A stretch of 25,000 nucleotides of DNA from a virus. The position numbers were made by a program, and so were the translations under genes. Within the stretch, counting starts at the first letter, position 1, and each line of letters opens with the position of its first letter. Positions 14,876-24,833 of this stretch are shown piece after piece. The DNA lies in the IMG/VR virus record IMGVR_UViG_3300042691_045951, positions 1 to 25,000 of that record; one strand, written 5' to 3'. The notes below the pieces were generated by a model. It made no database searches, was not told where the DNA came from, and saw nothing but the letters and a program-made list of their open reading frames with translations.

Positions 14876-15304
14876 TTATGACATTGTGATTAGGTATCTC
14901 AATTTGTTGATATCACCAATCAATTCATCTAACTTGTTTTGAATATCCGAATCGTTTTTGAAAACCGTTTTTCGGTAGTTATCATACAATTCAACATAAG
15001 ATGCTAGATATTCTTCGAGATTAACATCAGATAAGTCTACTAAAGGTGGAGGTGTTCCAACTCCTTTAATTGAAACTCGTCCATATTTACCCATTGACAT
15101 TTCCATGATATTGTCGATGTCTCCAACAACGCTTTCGTAGAATGCTCCAAGAGCCTTGTGTAGATCGCCTACTTCAGTTTGCCAATGCCAAACGTGTATT
15201 TGGTCTCTAAGCGAAAAGCTTTGCATAGCAAACATTGAATGGTTTCTGTCTGTTGTGTATTTAGCTGCTTCGTTTAGAAATTCGTCGTAATTTAGAATTT
15301 TCAT
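14876..15304 (-). CDS. Dps/ferritin-like protein with a capsid-targeting-like N-terminus
   Basis: I start it at MKILNYDEF (142 residues) rather than 9 codons earlier, because this puts it in line with the N-terminal peptide of three other proteins here; an LNE site precedes Ala13. The core IHVWHWQTEVGDLHKALGAF (36-55) and VVGDIDNIMEM (59-69) is Dps-like. H37, H49, D64 and E68 have exactly the spacing of four of the five Dps ferroxidase ligands (H51, H63, D78, E82 in E. coli). The fifth (D67) would be Gly53, although Glu57 is near. Related ferritin-like proteins occur in other T4-like phages. Dps proteins bind iron and DNA and protect DNA from oxidants. The last helix region (ELYDNYRKTVFKN to the end) completes a four-helix bundle. 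The CTS-like start suggests packaging with the DNA. Confidence 0.72.
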   Translation of the reverse strand: MKILNYDEFLNEAAKYTTDRNHSMFAMQSFSLRDQIHVWHWQTEVGDLHKALGAFYESVVGDIDNIMEMSMGKYGRVSIKGVGTPPPLVDLSDVNLEEYLASYVELYDNYRKTVFKNDSDIQNKLDELIGDINKLRYLITMS

Positions 15305-15321: not shown

Positions 15322-15329
15322 TATATATC
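15322..15329 (-). promoter_or_regulatory. Candidate GATATATA box before the Dps-like gene
   Basis: The minus strand reads TGATATATAGTAAAAA, starting at the stop of the upstream gene and about 17 bases before the ATG at 15304. ATATATAGTAAAAA also precedes the glycosyltransferase gene, another gene with a CTS-like start. Confidence 0.3.
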
Positions 15330-15816
15330 AAATCTTTTTAAGGCACTTAATCATTGGAGCAGGATCCATAGTCACGTCTTCCATTACCCAAACAAGTCCT
15401 CTTTTTTTACAACCGGCATCTTCAAAAACCTGGTCGAATCTTTTAGTAAATTCGGTTCTTTCTTTTGCATTACCAACTACTCTATTTACAAAGTACAATT
15501 GAACTCCGAGAACATCAAAATATATTGGATTCGAATGGTTTTCAATAGTTACTCCATATTTCTTGGAGATAGGTTCCATTTCCTTCGAGATCATATCGAG
15601 TAAGAAAGGAGATGCACTTACTAATTCTATGCCTTTTGTTTGTATACATTCCAATAAAACATACAAATTCAAATGGTCATCATCTTCTGTGGTATGGCAA
15701 CCTATAATGAAATTGTATTTTGGATGCTCGGATCGCATATTAACTGCTTCCCACATATCGAAGAATTTAGTCTCCGATTCTCCTATAAATTCGTTAAATG
15801 ATAAAAAGCTTTTCAT
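15328..15816 (-). CDS. Hypothetical protein with a capsid-targeting-like N-terminus
   Basis: This 162-residue protein has an unknown function. The start MKSFLSFNEFIGESETK fits the shared peptide, with an IGE site before Ser14. The rest is alpha/beta: KYNFIIGCHTTEDDDHLNLYVLLECI, a helix (PFLLDMISKEMEPISKKYG), the strand pair IYFDVLGVQLYFVNRVVGN, then ERTEFTKRFDQVFE and a final VWVMEDV strand. The strand-helix arrangement and the word VVGNAKERTEF hint at a nucleotidyltransferase- or nucleotide-hydrolase-like fold, but I cannot name one. It lies 14 bases after the clamp-loader gene, with the inverted repeat GAGATAAATATCTC just before its ATG. Confidence 0.6.
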   Translation of the reverse strand: MKSFLSFNEFIGESETKFFDMWEAVNMRSEHPKYNFIIGCHTTEDDDHLNLYVLLECIQTKGIELVSASPFLLDMISKEMEPISKKYGVTIENHSNPIYFDVLGVQLYFVNRVVGNAKERTEFTKRFDQVFEDAGCKKRGLVWVMEDVTMDPAPMIKCLKKI

Positions 15817-17565: not shown

Positions 17566-17982
17566 ATGTTTAACCCAATTCATCAGCACTTATTAGTAAA
17601 GTGCTCAATCAAAAAAACCATTAGAGAAGTTGAGGTACTTAATCAATGGTTTAGAGATCTAGTTGCAAAAGTTGGAATGAAAGTCGTTGCCGGACCTACT
17701 TCTGTAATGGTAGATGAACCTGGAAACGAAGGATTGACCGGAACTGTCACACTGGCAACATCCCACGCATCCATTCATATCTGGGACGAAGCGGAAAATC
17801 CGTTTCTTCAATTTGACATCTATTCATGCAAATGTTATGAGACTTCTGTTGTACTAGAACATATAAATAATGCATTCGAAATCGATGAGTATGAATATAT
17901 GCTCGTAGATAGAAATGACAATTTAACTGTGGTCGATCAAAAGGCCGGTAAGTACGAACAAAATTTAATAACAAATGAATAA
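17566..17982 (+). CDS. speD: S-adenosylmethionine decarboxylase-like pyruvoyl enzyme
   Basis: This 138-residue protein has the bacterial SpeD pattern: QHLLVKCSI at the start, TGTVTLATSHASIHIWDE (58-75) and LQFDIYSCKCY (81-91). Ser66 is the expected self-cleavage residue that becomes the pyruvoyl group, His71 is the processing histidine (5 residues after the serine, as in Thermotoga S63/H68), and Cys88 is the proton donor. The residue before the serine is Thr65, where classical enzymes have Glu. The family makes decarboxylated SAM for spermidine synthesis, but SpeD homologues have also become ornithine or arginine decarboxylases, so the substrate is uncertain. The next gene overlaps it by 8 bases (ATGAATAA), implying coupled translation. 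speD is a known auxiliary gene in T4-like cyanophages. Confidence 0.82.
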   Translation: MFNPIHQHLLVKCSIKKTIREVEVLNQWFRDLVAKVGMKVVAGPTSVMVDEPGNEGLTGTVTLATSHASIHIWDEAENPFLQFDIYSCKCYETSVVLEHINNAFEIDEYEYMLVDRNDNLTVVDQKAGKYEQNLITNE

Positions 17983-19084
17983 CATCGAAAAAACTTCAAT
18001 GAATTTGCCCTACCCAAAGATCAATATAGATCGTTGGTTTTCTCAGGAAGTACATGAAGAGGAATTGAAACACCTATTCAATGCTCCTAACTTACTTAAA
18101 TACTCAGGTCATGAACTTATAGTTCCTAATAATAATGATTACTGGGTTCCGCCTCAATTAGACAACCGTTGGATCGTAGTTAACAAAGACGGTAAAACTG
18201 AATTGGTTTCTAATGTATGTCTTCATAGACAAGCTCCTATTGTTGAAGGTAAAGGAAATTCAGCATTCTTTACATGTAAAGTTCATTGTTGGAATTACAA
18301 TAACAAAGGTAAGTTACGTTCTGCTCCTTTATTTAATGATGTTGATGGAGAATTAGAAAAGAAAGAACTTTACAATTGGAATGGACTTTTGCTTCAAGGA
18401 GGAGTTCCAGGATTCACATTAAAGGACGCAGGAGTTGACGATATCGTGGATTTCTCTAAATATCATTATGCATTCACTGACACTTTAGAACAAGATTACA
18501 ACTGGAAATCTTTCTCTGAAATCTATCTAGAAAACTATCATATCTTTGCAATCCATCCAGGATTTAACGGATTCGTTGATTGTAATAATCAAAGTTGGTT
18601 TATGCATGAAAGCGGTTCAGTACAAAGAGTTGGTATGAAAGAAACTCTAGATACTATTGCCGGATCTAAATGTTTTGAAGATTACCAAAAACTTCTTCTA
18701 AAAGCGTTTGAAGGTAGAATGCCTAGATTAGGTGCAGTTTGGATCTATTTATATCCGAACATTATGATTGATTGGTATCCTGGAGTTATTGTAGTATCGA
18801 CTATTCATCCAGTATCTCCTCAAAAATGCGTTAATTTAGTAGATTACTTCTTTGAGACTGAGATTTACGAAAAATGCCCTGAATTCTTTGAGGCTTCAAA
18901 AGTTATGTATGACGAAGTTGCAGTAGAAGATTCTTTTGCTTCCGGATATCAAGATAAAGGAAGACGAGCTCTTTATTTGAATGGAGAAACTCTTTCAGGT
19001 CCAATGGAACTTAATCAAGAAATTGGAGTTAAAGGTCTTTACGAATGGATTCGTAAAACTCATCCAAGACAATCTGAACAATAA
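17975..19084 (+). CDS. Rieske non-heme iron oxygenase, alpha-subunit type
   Basis: This 369-residue protein looks complete and active. The N-terminal Rieske domain has C82-x-H84 (SNVCLHRQAP) and C101-x2-H104 (FTCKVHCWNY), binding the [2Fe-2S] cluster, with 16 residues between. The catalytic domain has the mononuclear iron ligands H189 and H194 (ENYHIFAIHPG) and probably D319 (EVAVEDSFASGYQ), the usual two-His-one-carboxylate set. Such enzymes hydroxylate, demethylate or dealkylate small molecules and need a reductase, which is not encoded here and would come from the host. The nearest relatives probably act on aromatic, choline- or carnitine-like compounds, but the substrate cannot be read. 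It is translationally coupled to the decarboxylase, so an amine-related pathway is a reasonable guess. A strong terminator follows the stop. Confidence 0.9.
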   Translation: MNNIEKTSMNLPYPKINIDRWFSQEVHEEELKHLFNAPNLLKYSGHELIVPNNNDYWVPPQLDNRWIVVNKDGKTELVSNVCLHRQAPIVEGKGNSAFFTCKVHCWNYNNKGKLRSAPLFNDVDGELEKKELYNWNGLLLQGGVPGFTLKDAGVDDIVDFSKYHYAFTDTLEQDYNWKSFSEIYLENYHIFAIHPGFNGFVDCNNQSWFMHESGSVQRVGMKETLDTIAGSKCFEDYQKLLLKAFEGRMPRLGAVWIYLYPNIMIDWYPGVIVVSTIHPVSPQKCVNLVDYFFETEIYEKCPEFFEASKVMYDEVAVEDSFASGYQDKGRRALYLNGETLSGPMELNQEIGVKGLYEWIRKTHPRQSEQ

Positions 19085-19145: not shown

Positions 19146-20636
19146 TTAATCTTTTTTGAACTTAATACCTGCATGCTTTTGGCCTTTAGCTTCTCCGGCA
19201 GAGTATTCTCCGTCAAATGAGGTAGAAACGAAAGTTTTTGTCGGTGATACTGAACATCCGATCCTTTCCATGAATTTTCGGTTAACCAAGAACTTAGTAG
19301 ATTTGTCAGTTCTATCAACCAAAGATACGTGAACTCCTTTGTAATTTTTGCCAGCAAATTGAAGGTCTAATTCTATAATAGGTCTTTCATGAGTTTCATT
19401 ACCTACTTCAGCATTTGCATATCCGATAATTTTATTTTCGAATTTATTTCCACCTAACTCCCATTTTACCGTTTTATCTAAGACTTCCATTTTATCATAA
19501 GTCATTGAACAGGAAAGAGAACCATTACCTGTGTCAAATTTAGCAACTATATCGCCAATTCCTAATACATGAACAACTTCTCGGAATCCTACAATTTTTC
19601 TAGTGCGTATCCAGTTGGATTTGTCTTCTAAAAAGTCTAGGATATCGGCAACCACATCTATACCAGTTGCTTTCTTAAGACCTTGAGTTCCAGGAGAAGC
19701 ATTAACTTCTAGAACGTAATTTTTACCAGTCTTCTTATCAACTATAATATCAACTCCGCACCAATTACATCCAATAGCTTTTGCCGCATTAATAGCGATT
19801 TCTTCTTGTTCTTTTGATACCTTGGTTTTTTCGACGGTACCACCTAAAGAATAATTAGTTCTGAAGTCTTTCTTAACTCGATTCCTTCTCATGAAACCTA
19901 GAAGAACTGCATCAGTATCTTCCGGCTTTGGCGCATTGAATTTTCTAGAAAGTACATGAATTCTTAAATCATATTCAGAATCGATTTTCTCTTGAATAAG
20001 AACTTCTAATTTAGAATCCAGTTTCCAAAGAGTCTGAAGAACGGATTTCAAAGATGCTAAAGATTCAACTATAGAAACTCCAATTCCTTGAGATCCGGAA
20101 AGTAATTTAAGAACTACAGGAAATTTTCCACCGGTTTGTTTAACTGCTGAATCGATATTTTCTTCATTTTCAATGATAGCCATTTTAGGAACAGGAATAC
20201 CTGCATCTTGAAGAATTTTAGAAGTAACATACTTGTTTTCGCAAGCTAGAATTGAATCTAAAGTGTTAACAACAAAGAATCCAGCATCTTCTAATTTGGT
20301 TACTGCATCTCTTGTAAATGTAGATCTAACAACTCCTCTACGGGTCATAATTGCAGTATCATCTACTGAAATTCCCATAGGTTTTTTGTTATTTTTGTCA
20401 TATATAAGGAAGTCATTTTTCATGGTTTTATCTTCCTCAACTACACATGAATTGATATCGACGATACGATATTTGATTCCTCTTTTATCACATTCCTGGG
20501 CAACTGCTGGAACCGTGTAGGATTCTTCACTCATATTAGAAAGAAGAATCAATTTGATTTTGGGTTTCTTGGCTTTGGCTTCTTTAGCTTCATTCAAAGC
20601 ATTGAATTCGTCAAAGTAGAGAATTTGTCTTTTCAT
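19146..20636 (-). CDS. RimK-type ATP-grasp ligase fused to a RimB-type retropepsin-like domain
   Basis: This 496-residue fusion has three parts. Residues 1-16 (MKRQILYFDEFNALNE before Ala17) are the CTS-like peptide. About 28-345 is a RimK ATP-grasp ligase: KLLSGSQGIGVSIVES, the DLRIHVL strand, MRRNRVKKDFRTNYSLGGTV, and the metal-binding EVNASPGTQGLKKATGID. About 348-485 is a RimB-like domain (often annotated as ATP-dependent zinc protease): RKIVGFREVVHVLGIG, the aspartic protease motif KFDTGNGS, a RPIIELDL strand, and SLVDRTDKSTKFLVNRKFM. In bacteria RimK adds glutamates to ribosomal protein S6, and RimB is a separate aspartic protease acting in the same system. A writer and possible eraser in one chain is notable. 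Its start overlaps the zinc-ribbon gene by 26 bases. Confidence 0.85.
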   Translation of the reverse strand: MKRQILYFDEFNALNEAKEAKAKKPKIKLILLSNMSEESYTVPAVAQECDKRGIKYRIVDINSCVVEEDKTMKNDFLIYDKNNKKPMGISVDDTAIMTRRGVVRSTFTRDAVTKLEDAGFFVVNTLDSILACENKYVTSKILQDAGIPVPKMAIIENEENIDSAVKQTGGKFPVVLKLLSGSQGIGVSIVESLASLKSVLQTLWKLDSKLEVLIQEKIDSEYDLRIHVLSRKFNAPKPEDTDAVLLGFMRRNRVKKDFRTNYSLGGTVEKTKVSKEQEEIAINAAKAIGCNWCGVDIIVDKKTGKNYVLEVNASPGTQGLKKATGIDVVADILDFLEDKSNWIRTRKIVGFREVVHVLGIGDIVAKFDTGNGSLSCSMTYDKMEVLDKTVKWELGGNKFENKIIGYANAEVGNETHERPIIELDLQFAGKNYKGVHVSLVDRTDKSTKFLVNRKFMERIGCSVSPTKTFVSTSFDGEYSAGEAKGQKHAGIKFKKD

Positions 20637-21114
20637 TTTTTCTGATATATTTTAGAAACTTTCGTTGGTTTTCTTTAAGCAATTTTTTGTAATGGTCGGT
20701 AAAATTAACCATGGATTCTAGGACTGATTGACTTACACTTTTAGAATCCTTTACATAATATGTATAACACTTCTTACACGTGAAATTGTCTACTTTGAAA
20801 TTATCTATCCTAGATTTTATCGGTCCTTTGCAATATGCGCAATTCCAATCTAATATCTTATAGATATCCTTAACGTGTGAATAAGTGGATATCTCTCGTG
20901 TCTCTGGGTTGATGTAAGGTCGATATAAATGAGATACCTTTATCCTAGAATCTTCGATCTTAAACAAACACTGAATGAACCTGTCATCCGTCGAATTTTT
21001 GGATATGACAGGATTTTTCAGTAAAACTCTTTGATATCTTGGTTCTAGATTTTTTAGAAGAATACCAAAGCGAGTTCTTGCTTTACCTCGATTTTGTCGT
21101 ATAATTTTAACCAT
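20611..21114 (-). CDS. Zinc-ribbon protein of unknown function
   Basis: This 167-residue, basic protein starts at MVKIIRQNRGKART, overlapping the upstream stop by 8 bases (ATGGTTAA). A start 8 codons earlier is possible but overlaps more. C92, C95, C113 and C116 (NCAYCKGP and FTCKKCYT) form a four-cysteine zinc ribbon. The basic N-terminus (about 1-35) and C-terminal helix (KKLLKENQRKFLKYIRKNEK) suggest nucleic-acid binding. It could be a transcription or translation factor; I recognise no family. Its neighbours are the very charged 1044-residue protein and the RimK fusion. Confidence 0.6.
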   Translation of the reverse strand: MVKIIRQNRGKARTRFGILLKNLEPRYQRVLLKNPVISKNSTDDRFIQCLFKIEDSRIKVSHLYRPYINPETREISTYSHVKDIYKILDWNCAYCKGPIKSRIDNFKVDNFTCKKCYTYYVKDSKSVSQSVLESMVNFTDHYKKLLKENQRKFLKYIRKNEKTNSLL

Positions 21115-24100
21115 GTATAGGTAGAAATTCGTTATCAAGATCCCTCATTTGACCTTCAATTATAGCTATTATAGCTCCAATGGTCCATAAGTCAGTATCG
21201 GTTGCTTCATTCTGTTTAGCTTTTGCATCTTCTACTGCTTTTTTACCAGCTTCAAGGTTCTTTTCTATTGCAGATATAGCTTTTTGAATTGATTCTTTCT
21301 TATCTTCCGGAGCTTCTGCTAATTGAGATTTTTTATCACCTAAAGCTTTTTCGATACCTTTTAATTTATCTTCGGCAACTCTAATTTGATAGGCTTTCTT
21401 TTTAGCTTCAATTTCTTCAGGAGTATCTCCTTTTTGAGGTTGTTCTTCCGTCTTAACTTCTTTCTTAGAAGGTTCAGAAACCGAGGAACCTTTAAGTTCT
21501 TCTTTTTGTTTCTGGTTTATTTTCTGATTAAGCTCGAATTCTTTTTTAGAGTCCTTCTTCAATTGCTCTTTCTGATCTGCTATTTTATCAGCCTGTTCAG
21601 GCGTAGCATTCTTATCTGCATCTTCATCTGAAGCAGCCTCGTCGGCTTTTAGTTGCTGAGTTTTTTCTTTAGATTCACCTTCGGCATCTTTTGCTTTACT
21701 TTCCAATTCTTTCTTTTGATCAGGATCTACCGTCATAGCGGCTAATTGCTGATTAAATTTAATTCTATTTTGGAGTCTCAATCCGGCAACGAATTTCTTA
21801 AGCATACCATTGTTACCAACTATTTCGTCGGTTTCTGCCATTAAAGCATTGATTTCTTCATTTCTAGCTGTTAATTCGCCACTAAGTCGATTTTCTATAT
21901 CGCTTATTTCTGCTTTAATTTTATCAATCTCCTCTTTTTTATTCTTTTCTTCGTCTGCATCAGCATCCTCTTCTTCCTTTTTCTTCTTCGCTTCTTCTTC
22001 AGCTTTAAGTTTATCTTCTTCCGATTTAAGATCTACACCAGTAGCTTTTTTAACTGATTCTTGCTCTCTCATTTTCTTAACTCGGAGCTGGTCTATTTGA
22101 TTCTTTAATGCAGCCTTTTCTTTAGGATCTTCTGTATTTTTCATTTCCTCCTCTAGACCTGCGATTTCATCGTTAATCTTTTGGATCTCTTTGAAAGATG
22201 CATCCGCCTGAGCCATTTTCTTGGCTTCTTCTTCTTTCTCTTTTGATAATTTTACATCTCCTTCTAATTTGGCTTTTGCACCAGTTAATTTAGCTTTTTG
22301 CTGTTTAAGAGGCATCTCTTTTGCCGTATATGCAGCCATCTCTTTATTAAATTTCTCAGTTGCGGCTCCGTCTTTGGTAGCATCTCCTGTAGTTGCAGGT
22401 TTTTCGGGTTTTGATGTAGCCAAATTGGCTAATTCTTGATCTACCTTATCGATTTCGTCTTGAAGTTCTTCGATCTTCTGCTCTTTAGATTTTGTATCAT
22501 CTCCAGTTATATCGTCTGCAGTAGTTTCTTCTCCTGTCTTATCATCGGTGGTTTCTTCCCCTGACTTATCATCAGTAGTTTCTTCTCCCGACTTATCATC
22601 TGATGGAGGTGTAGTTTCTTCTCCTGATTTATCGTCTTTAGTTTCGCCTGACTTATCGTCTGATGGAGGAGTAGTTTCTTCTCCCGACTTATCATCTTTG
22701 GTTTCTCCTGACTTATCGTCTTTGTCTTCTTTGTCGTCTTCTGGTTCTTCGGCAGGTGCATTAGCAGCAACATCAACATCAGAAGATTTACCGCTCTTTA
22801 ATGCGGCAATTTGATCTTCTAGCTTTTTAATAGTATTTCCTATAGAAGCTTTTGAATCTCCTTCTGCAGTTTTTTCTCTTTCTTGTGCAGCGGCTAATTC
22901 AGCTTCAAGTTCTTTGATCTTTAATTCCGTAGCTTCCGCTTGAAGTTTTTCTTTTTCAGTTTCTTCTAGAATCAAAGAATAGGATTCGAGTATTGATTTT
23001 CTCAATCTTAATGATGCTCTTAATCTTTCCGAAATTAGTGATCTTTTATATTCTATATCGTCTAGTTCTTCGTCTAATCGATCCAATGTATTACCAAAGT
23101 TAGGACATATAGCATCAAAATCGAAAGATTCGTTTTTCTCTAGTTTCTTCTTAATCTCTGCCTGTTTGTCGTATATAGATTGAAGCTTATCTTCATATTC
23201 CTTTTTCATGTCAGATATAGCATCATACATATCCATATCATGGTTATCTTGTTGATCCGCATCCCAATCAGGATCTCTTTCATCATCGAATTTCTTACGA
23301 ATCTCGTCTTCTTTATCTGATTGCTCTTGGTTTATAGATTCTTCTTCAGCATCAAGCTTTTCTAATTCAGCTTTTAATGCTTCTTCATCATCACCGCCTT
23401 CATCTTCCTTTGGCTCTTCAGCAGGTTCTTCCTTCGGTTCTTCCTTCGGCTCTTCAGCAGGTTCTTCCTTTGGCTCCTCTTTAGGTTCTTCAGCAGGTTC
23501 TTCCTTCGGTTCTTCCTTTGGCTCCTCTTTAGGTTCTTCTGCTGGTTTTTCTTCAGCTTCTTTATCTCCTTCAGGACCTAAGTCTTTTATTTCTTGTCTT
23601 TTATCTACCCATTGTGAATAGAAATCGGCGGCGGTCTTTAATTGTGCAGCAACTGCCAAATCAGTTTTAGCACCTTTATCGCCTTTAAGTTCTTTGATTT
23701 GACCGCTAAGTTCTCTATTCTCAGCTCTAATAGTTTTAATCTCTACATTAAGTTCTCGTCTTTTTTGTAAAGGTTGTCCTTGCTTTTGGTCTTTAAGACC
23801 TTTTACCTTTTCTCTATTAGATTTCTTTTGTTCTCTTAGCTTCTCAATCTGAGCATCGATTTTCTTGTTTTTAGCAGCTTCTTTTTCCTTGTCACTAGGT
23901 CCGCCTTTAGCATCCGGTTTGCCTTCAGGTTTTTTAGGTCCATCAGGTTTTTTAGGTCCATCTTTCTTCTTTGCAGCAGGCTTCTTCTTCATAGCCGGCT
24001 TTTGTGGTCTGGCAGGTTTTCTCTTTGCTACTTCTAAAAGTCTAGTGTAATTTTCGTTTTCTGATAGATCAAATTCAGAAAAAGCTTCTATAACTTCTTC

Positions 24101-24241
24101 TGCACTCATTTGATCGCTAAATTCAAACTCATATTCACTAGAAACGCTGTCTATAAATTTGGATATCAAATTCCTTTCCTCCATGAGCTTATACTCCTGT
24201 AGCATTTGATACTCCAATAACAATTTATTTAGGTTTTCCAT
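21107..24241 (-). CDS. Very large charged coiled-coil and low-complexity protein
   Basis: This 1044-residue protein starts at MENLNKLLLEYQML. ATG 24241 lies 11 bases after the preceding stop; an ATG 26 codons earlier would overlap that gene by 68 bases. The composition is extreme in Lys, Glu, Asp, Ala and Gln. Order: a helical N-terminus (1-70), a Pro/Lys-rich stretch (about 75-115), long coiled coils, an acidic EEPKEEPAEEP repeat (about 230-280), more coiled coil, a DDKSGEETT repeat (about 500-570), then coiled coils to a compact C-terminus with a hydrophobic patch (LWTIGAIIAIIEGQM). No enzyme motif and no cysteine-rich region is visible. Such a protein could be a scaffold or core protein of the prohead, an internal head protein or a cytoskeleton-like filament. 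No family recognised. It stands just upstream of the zinc-ribbon and ligase genes. Confidence 0.65.
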   Translation of the reverse strand: MENLNKLLLEYQMLQEYKLMEERNLISKFIDSVSSEYEFEFSDQMSAEEVIEAFSEFDLSENENYTRLLEVAKRKPARPQKPAMKKKPAAKKKDGPKKPDGPKKPEGKPDAKGGPSDKEKEAAKNKKIDAQIEKLREQKKSNREKVKGLKDQKQGQPLQKRRELNVEIKTIRAENRELSGQIKELKGDKGAKTDLAVAAQLKTAADFYSQWVDKRQEIKDLGPEGDKEAEEKPAEEPKEEPKEEPKEEPAEEPKEEPKEEPAEEPKEEPKEEPAEEPKEDEGGDDEEALKAELEKLDAEEESINQEQSDKEDEIRKKFDDERDPDWDADQQDNHDMDMYDAISDMKKEYEDKLQSIYDKQAEIKKKLEKNESFDFDAICPNFGNTLDRLDEELDDIEYKRSLISERLRASLRLRKSILESYSLILEETEKEKLQAEATELKIKELEAELAAAQEREKTAEGDSKASIGNTIKKLEDQIAALKSGKSSDVDVAANAPAEEPEDDKEDKDDKSGETKDDKSGEETTPPSDDKSGETKDDKSGEETTPPSDDKSGEETTDDKSGEETTDDKTGEETTADDITGDDTKSKEQKIEELQDEIDKVDQELANLATSKPEKPATTGDATKDGAATEKFNKEMAAYTAKEMPLKQQKAKLTGAKAKLEGDVKLSKEKEEEAKKMAQADASFKEIQKINDEIAGLEEEMKNTEDPKEKAALKNQIDQLRVKKMREQESVKKATGVDLKSEEDKLKAEEEAKKKKEEEDADADEEKNKKEEIDKIKAEISDIENRLSGELTARNEEINALMAETDEIVGNNGMLKKFVAGLRLQNRIKFNQQLAAMTVDPDQKKELESKAKDAEGESKEKTQQLKADEAASDEDADKNATPEQADKIADQKEQLKKDSKKEFELNQKINQKQKEELKGSSVSEPSKKEVKTEEQPQKGDTPEEIEAKKKAYQIRVAEDKLKGIEKALGDKKSQLAEAPEDKKESIQKAISAIEKNLEAGKKAVEDAKAKQNEATDTDLWTIGAIIAIIEGQMRDLDNEFLPIHG
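22519..22740. repeat. In-frame tandem repeats coding for DDKSGEETT-type units
   Basis: About 220 bases within the 1044-residue protein gene carry about ten imperfect units (mostly 24-39 bases) that encode DDKSGEETTPPS, DDKSGETK and DDKTGEETTA. They are coding low complexity, not a CRISPR array: the units are contiguous and keep frame. Confidence 0.85.
23403..23545. repeat. In-frame tandem repeats coding for EEPKEEPAEEP units
   Basis: About 140 bases encode alternating EEPK and EEPA units, a Glu/Pro/Lys low-complexity linker in the 1044-residue protein. Units of 12 bases differ at wobble positions, so the protein sequence rather than the DNA seems to be kept. Confidence 0.85.
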
Positions 24242-24251
24242 TAAAGGTTTA

Positions 24252-24833
24252 TTATTTTTCTGCTTTATCTCCACCTCCACCAGGTGCCATTCCAGGCCAT
24301 TCAATCTTTTGAATCTCACCTAATGCAGCAAGTTTCTTTTTCAATGCTGCTAGATCTTTATAGCCGGCATTTAATTTATTCATTTCGGCTGCAAATTCAG
24401 CATCTACTGCTTTTTTAGCTTTCTTCTTTTTGAAGAGATATTGAATCCATTTACCAACACCGATAGCCGCACCGGCAACTCCGGCAGCCACAGCAGCACC
24501 ACCGGCAATAACAAGTCCAGTGGCAGATTCGGTATCTTTTTCAGGATTGTAAGGTACTTGACCTTCACCGGCCTCAATGATTATTTCGAAATCTTCATGA
24601 TCTCTTTCATTGAATCCAAAAGATTCATATAGGTGGTCAAGAATTGGGAATGGGTTTAATTCGTAAGATTCGCACATATGTCCAACTCCAGTAGAACTTA
24701 ATAGTAAAAGGAATCTGATAGCATCATCAAATTCTGCACGTTTAGGTACGTAGTTGTAGGTATTACACAATACCACATATTCATTAAGTTCGTCTCTGAG
24801 TTTAATATATTCAGAAGGCTCTATTAGTCTCAT
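24252..24833 (-). CDS. Protein with a central Gly/Ala-rich membrane-type segment
   Basis: This 193-residue protein has an N-terminal helical part (1-95), a Gly/Ala-rich hydrophobic stretch (GLVIAGGAAVAAGVAGAAIGVGKWI, about 106-130), a very basic patch (LFKKKKAKKA) and a coiled-coil-like C-terminus ending in GMAPGGGGDKAEK. The stretch could cross a membrane or pack in a virion shell. No family recognised. The next gene (1044 residues) starts 11 bases after the stop. GCATATAACTAG and a GATATATA box precede its start. Confidence 0.6.
   Translation of the reverse strand: MRLIEPSEYIKLRDELNEYVVLCNTYNYVPKRAEFDDAIRFLLLLSSTGVGHMCESYELNPFPILDHLYESFGFNERDHEDFEIIIEAGEGQVPYNPEKDTESATGLVIAGGAAVAAGVAGAAIGVGKWIQYLFKKKKAKKAVDAEFAAEMNKLNAGYKDLAALKKKLAALGEIQKIEWPGMAPGGGGDKAEK

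Follow-up and report, generated by a model that had tools for sequence, protein, structure and literature searches.

Polyglutamylation is barely charted in bacteria, and the known targets that have been named are only RpsF and Legionella SdeA (PMC12239564). In Pseudomonas, the ligase RimK, which produces polyglutamate (poly-Glu) chains (PMC10092738), and the protease RimB are separate proteins encoded by adjacent genes, whereas both are joined in the RimBK hybrid of Desulfotalea psychrophila, in which RimB comes first and which acts as a protease on polyglutamylated RpsF (PMC11957791). Pseudomonas RloA and RloA2 (9g58 and 9g59; PMC12239564) are stand-alone, secreted periplasmic retropepsins with solved structures. 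Among phages, several cyanophages (S-RIM12, S-CAM8, S-RIM8 and S-RIM32) carry RimK-like genes, and a jumbo-phage review discusses ATP-grasp ligases of a different clade, R2K, which are proposed to modify host proteins. In T4, the protease gp21 cleaves after L/I-x-E, and propeptides of 10-19 residues send internal proteins into the head (PMC9026906). Here we analyze a 25,000-nucleotide stretch of viral DNA (positions 1 to 25,000 of IMG/VR record IMGVR_UViG_3300042691_045951; hereafter the window), in which one gene encodes a RimK-type ligase fused to a RimB/RloA-type retropepsin behind a predicted head-targeting peptide, as an earlier note had proposed. The gene and its parts are as follows:

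19146-20636, minus strand: whole fusion gene, 496 aa, ATG start
20589-20636, minus strand: predicted capsid-targeting peptide, residues 1-16 (MKRQILYFDEFNALNE), with a predicted prohead-protease cut after E16
19608-20555, minus strand: RimK-type pre-ATP-grasp and ATP-grasp ligase, residues 28-343 (domain, profile and structure matches)
19149-19607, minus strand: residues 344 to about 472, which form the RimB/RloA-type retropepsin domain, and a C-terminal tail that ends at residue 496
19524-19535, minus strand: DTGN active-site motif, residues 368-371

Comparison with described fusions

Like the Desulfotalea hybrid, the phage protein holds RimK and RimB in one chain, but RimB is N-terminal in the former and C-terminal in the latter, and the hybrid is bacterial and has no head tag. 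The phage-like order is found in a haloarchaeal plasmid protein of the RimK/LysX family (L213, WP_338918291.1), which matches both RimK and PF05618 but differs in having DTGA and LLGRD, no tag and a long branch outside the phage clade. On two Vibrio plasmids (L212 and L214), rimK is followed directly by rimB in the same frame, and the products are separate and, like those of Pseudomonas with the same two activities, without a tag. The claim that the bacterial enzymes are separate proteins thus stands for Pseudomonas and Vibrio and fails for Desulfotalea. The search for other fused RimK-RimB proteins that had been suggested yielded the phage clade described below and the haloarchaeal fusion; two genome-contig scans gave no cellular relatives, and the thin survey of cells depends on a single plasmid search. 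Fusion of the two enzymes as such is therefore not new. The virus-packed form appears to be undescribed: our literature searches turned up no account of a RimK-retropepsin fusion in phages, and the clade, tag and motif variants of the phage proteins are absent from the literature searched.

The ligase and retropepsin halves

The ligase half matches PF08443 with 124.8 bits (cut-off 21) over residues 133-335 and TIGR00768 with 166.7 bits (cut-off 143.4) over residues 41-334. Structure and profile searches both put RimK first, and Foldseek comparison with the AlphaFold2 model, whose predicted local distance difference test (pLDDT) score is 86.9 for the full chain and 92.2 for the retropepsin domain alone, gave template modeling (TM) scores to RimK of up to 0.89 (target-normalized). 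In an alignment of 39 viral homologues that are 32-80% identical to the window protein (alignment A2, to which all counts out of 39 refer), the ATP-grasp residues K135, K177, R225, D296, E310 and N312 are invariant. The contact residues of Pseudomonas RimK include R64, R189, N262, K141, F210, N213, R8 and S68 (PMC10092738), of which the first six map onto positions conserved in 39/39; the positions of its S7 and S14 are mostly S or T among the homologues, and those of R8 and S68 are changed. The RimK half is probably a glutamate ligase.

The retropepsin half gives weak matches as a single sequence and solid ones as a family. PF05618 stays below its cut-off of 27 bits in the window protein, with 14.5 bits for the full chain (E=0.034) and 17.6 bits for the domain alone (E=0.0036); the cut-off is passed by the homologues of phages Mosig and YerA41 (28 and 29 bits), and PF05618 is matched by 25 of the 39 family members (best E 1.1e-9). 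A profile built from the 39 homologues matches solved RloA2 (9g59) at E=2.9e-10, and also Lpg0085 (2pma) and RloA (9g58). Foldseek gave a TM of 0.75-0.78 to RloA2, the RloA/RloA2 pair being the closest solved fold, and up to 0.67 to human immunodeficiency virus (HIV) protease. The segment K366-F-D-T-G-N371 as well as L450 and R453 are invariant, so that DTGN is found in 39/39. In RloA, K46, R114 and R137 contact poly-Glu in a model and belong to a residue set in which alanine changes lowered cleavage, the loss being strongest for R114A and R137A (PMC12239564). K46 corresponds to K366 (39/39), and, in a mapping that rests on spacing and profile alignment, R114 corresponds to R418 and R137 to R442 (38/39 each). 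The phage domain thus shares the conserved aspartate and the poly-Glu-binding basic residues of RloA and RloA2, and this half is more likely than not an active poly-Glu protease. The fusion of ligase and DTGN retropepsin claimed earlier is borne out: both cores are present in the predicted structure, and the catalytic aspartate and metal-binding residues are kept in the relatives.

The predicted N-terminal head-targeting tag

Residues 1-22 are of low confidence in the AlphaFold2 model, in which the 16-residue peptide is disordered. The peptide's layout, F-x-x-F-x-[LIV]-N-E-[A/S/G], is kept across the family. The predicted cut site of the window protein, L14-N15-E16 followed by A17, places L/I-x-E before a small residue, as in T4-type propeptides; T4 ipII and ipIII, which start with MKTYQEFIAEA, have the same layout. 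Residue 16 is Glu in 37/39 despite variable surroundings, position 14 is hydrophobic in 39/39, and F8 and F11 are found in 30/39 and 32/39, respectively. The motif is present in 33/39 homologues, against a mean of 1.8 and a maximum of 8 in 2000 shuffles, which supports the head-targeting peptide that the earlier note had proposed. The RimK of cyanophage S-RIM12 is untagged and begins directly at its domain.

Pattern scans found tag-like starts on 25 open reading frames (ORFs) of the related genome G007 and 15 of G004, a few of which probably arose by chance. Strict matches occurred near ORF starts at 21 of 458 methionines in G007 and 11 of 402 in G004, as compared with one of 562 and one of 546 internal methionines. 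A chance origin of the tag was rejected by this comparison together with the shuffle test. No homology was detectable among the mature parts of the tagged ORFs, and Pfam gave names to almost none of ten tagged G007 proteins; by their starts, these ORFs form a candidate set of virion-packed proteins. The near-identical starts in G007 (L034-L040) and G004 (L025-L032) read MKNIPxFEEFVNEA and MKHIKLFEQFINEA, and a separate tagged protein of G007 (L034, 14449-15252) is cytidylyltransferase-like. In the window itself, tag-like starts are also seen on the minus strand in a DUF5856/rI.-1-like protein (14876-15304, MKILNYDEFLNEA), a second protein (15328-15816, MKSFLSFNEFIGES) and a family 2 glycosyltransferase (222-1112, MNNILSFDDFQHLSLIKES). 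A scan of Mosig gave no other convincing tagged proteins.

Genes for gp21-like prohead proteases are present in the relatives G004, G005 and G007 and in Mosig and YerA41, and gp23-like capsid genes are present in related genomes; a gp21-like protease was not found in the window's own 25-kb fragment. We consider it likely that the enzyme is packaged in heads.

The YerA41 homologue

Presence in a particle is supported for a distant homologue by one outside dataset. YerA41 g112, a "ribosomal protein modification protein", is marked as detected by liquid chromatography-tandem mass spectrometry (LC-MS/MS) in particles (PMC7354516), and we equated YerA41_066 with g112 by gene order and description. 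The YerA41 homologue starts with MNTLNQSPARRLLNKFEAADEK, which differs from the window-type tag. Starts of this type are found on six YerA41 ORFs, five of which, including the homologue, are annotated as structural. The hypergeometric P for this overlap ranges from 0.001 (40 coding sequences hand-counted as structural) to 0.009 (63 particle proteins), values that are optimistic since the pattern was written after the sequences had been seen. The shared motif, MSRISxLNKKFEAAD (L218, 23860-24204 and 29211-30629; L220, 39744-40082, 40088-40507, 42564-42959 and 43455-44054), may be YerA41's own head-targeting signal; YerA41, with a diverged head system, would then carry a different tag on the same enzyme. 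YerA41 DNA resists sequencing, and for this reason alone a role in DNA hypermodification was considered; nothing in our results supports it.

Distribution and phylogeny

The fusion is carried by many phages of aquatic origin. In one scan, 548 of 600 matched stretches held relatives; this number is a lower bound, and the fusion was checked in some of them. The DTG motif is present in all but Melnitz among 149 extracted proteins, and among 50,697 phage records the retropepsin domain was matched only by Mosig, YerA41 and GN1. All tested viral fusions and Melnitz form one clade (support 100/99), apart from the RimKs of cyanophages, which also differ in having no retropepsin, and of Vibrio. YerA41 and Melnitz sit on long branches. 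Melnitz has RimK only; because it nests within the fusion clade, its RimB was probably lost. Many independent phage fusions are not supported, given the single clade.

Some variants of the architecture were also observed. In L096 (908-3073) and L097, a 724-residue frame has an N-terminal nucleotidyltransferase-like region (FGRFQPPTIGHEKL) before RimK-RimB. In three freshwater-type loci, a second gene with RimK only lies right behind the fusion (L069, 6403-7389; L070, 6434-7405; L080, 6373-7338), and these RimK-only genes form their own distant branch.

Genomic neighborhood

In the window's clade, the fusion follows the major capsid gene at a distance of three genes, in the order major capsid, C10, C12, C6, fusion. 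In the window, its start overlaps the upstream C6 gene by 26 bp:

20611-21114, minus strand: C6, 167 aa with CxxC pairs, upstream of the fusion and syntenic in the window's clade
21107-24241, minus strand: C12, charged and Lys/Glu-rich, 1044 aa from the first ATG, between capsid genes and the fusion
24252-24833, minus strand: C10, in relatives the next gene downstream of the major capsid gene

The C12 product has EEPKEEP and DDKSGEE repeats and no family match; it is syntenic behind the capsid gene in relatives, its length differs greatly among them, and it is a possible head-core or substrate protein. In the marine clades, the order is clamp loader, RegA, fusion, ferredoxin, DNA polymerase.

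Proposed function and alternatives

Based on these results, we lean toward the view that the fusion is a head-packaged, injected writer and eraser of glutamate tails on a host protein. A T4-like phage would pack the enzyme in its head via the N-terminal capsid-targeting peptide, the prohead protease would remove the tag after E16, and the enzyme would enter the host together with the DNA. Once in the cytosol, which is rich in ATP, the RimK domain would ligate glutamates onto a host protein, and the tethered RimB-like retropepsin, probably as a dimer, would trim or remove the tails and/or stimulate the ligase, so that glutamate tails could be set or reset ahead of any phage gene expression. The domains and folds, the conserved residues, the tag and the single clade come from computation; for the window's phage, we infer packaging, injection, glutamate as the donor and proteolysis. 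The favored target is ribosomal protein S6, the modification of which could serve a take-over of translation; because it is chosen by analogy with RimK and RimB, we offer it as a tentative conjecture. It is doubtful, though conceivable, that the virions of widespread aquatic phages deliver a self-contained polyglutamylation writer and eraser that resets host ribosomes through S6 at the start of infection. T4 Alt, a host-modifying enzyme injected from the head, provides a parallel for the predicted strategy, although the mature domains of ipII, ipIII and Alt are unrelated to the fusion, the packaging of which is predicted from sequence. If the S6 proposal is true, the strategy would be Alt-like, directed at translation and not at transcription.

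Several observations weigh against this proposal. Activity and packaging are both predictions for the window's phage. The ligase half misses the cut-off of the S6-ligase equivalog PRK10446 (103.2 vs. 331), and the phage homologues do not conserve R8 and S68, two RimK residues in contact with the glutamate chain. In the retropepsin half, the three solved relatives, including RloA and RloA2, have DTGA where the phage family has DTGN. Purified Desulfotalea RimBK failed to glutamylate SBW25 RpsF (PMC11957791). The YerA41 particle lists include replication proteins (PMC7354516), so contamination is possible, and in the marine clades the fusion sits among replication genes, and therefore the enzyme may also act when newly made.

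Among the alternatives, it is possible, though unlikely, that the enzyme serves head morphogenesis: in the prohead or the producing cell, it would add glutamates to a core or internal protein of the phage (e.g., the C12 product) or trim them, with no role in the next host. Such a role would suit the gene order of the window's clade, the many acidic stretches of C12 and the listing of the YerA41 homologue as middle-expressed (PMC7354516), but other clades place the gene in the replication cluster without these neighbors, no head protein was found to have a RimK-type substrate tail, and RloA failed to cleave an encoded acidic stretch (PMC12239564). Alternatively, the fusion may be an ordinary auxiliary gene whose product is made and used solely within the infected cell; its N-terminal peptide would then be no packaging signal and the YerA41 detection a contamination. 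This would fit the marine clades, where the gene has DNA polymerase and clamp-loader genes as neighbors, and the YerA41 particle list, which contains many replication enzymes. We regard such a gene as rather improbable, since the tag is enriched and conserved in the homologues, the same start recurs on many unrelated ORFs of G007 and G004, YerA41 has a different shared start and the S-RIM12 RimK lacks any such leader.

That the protein is a poly-Glu synthetase with a built-in regulator, with the retropepsin mainly stimulating or limiting the ligase and the product being free poly-alpha-glutamate or the auto-modified enzyme and not a modified host protein, seems slightly less probable still. 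Poly-Glu synthesis by RimK is stimulated by RimB (PMC11957791), poly-Glu chains are what RimK makes (PMC10092738), and the altered surroundings of the active site, DTGN with NR or DR for GR, could mean reduced proteolysis; the retention of the catalytic aspartate and the poly-Glu-contacting basic residues in 38-39 of the 39 homologues, however, fits an active protease. We give very little credence to the idea that the protein, as a member of the wider RimK family, attaches glutamate to small molecules in the making of cofactors or peptides, as MptN, CofF and LysX do, and does not modify proteins. MptN does top the equivalog models (142 bits, cut-off 350), all of which are below their cut-offs, but the searches rank RimK first and the family of the fused domain cuts poly-Glu.

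If the proposal of a head-packaged, injected writer and eraser is true, phages edit host proteins, perhaps ribosomes, by means of glutamate tails. An enzyme that combines a predicted writer and eraser in one chain and is probably injected would help in the search for targets, and lineage-specific head tags would provide a sequence handle for predicting the virion-packed proteins of uncultured phages.

Other genes near the fusion

Adjoining the fusion in the window, at 17566-19084 on the plus strand and between minus-strand genes, is a pair encoding an S-adenosylmethionine decarboxylase and a Rieske ring-hydroxylating oxygenase, an unusual cargo for a phage. In Pelagibacter phage Mosig, a putative gene for ribosomal protein S21 (L015, 4503-4712) lies about 5 kb from the fusion gene.
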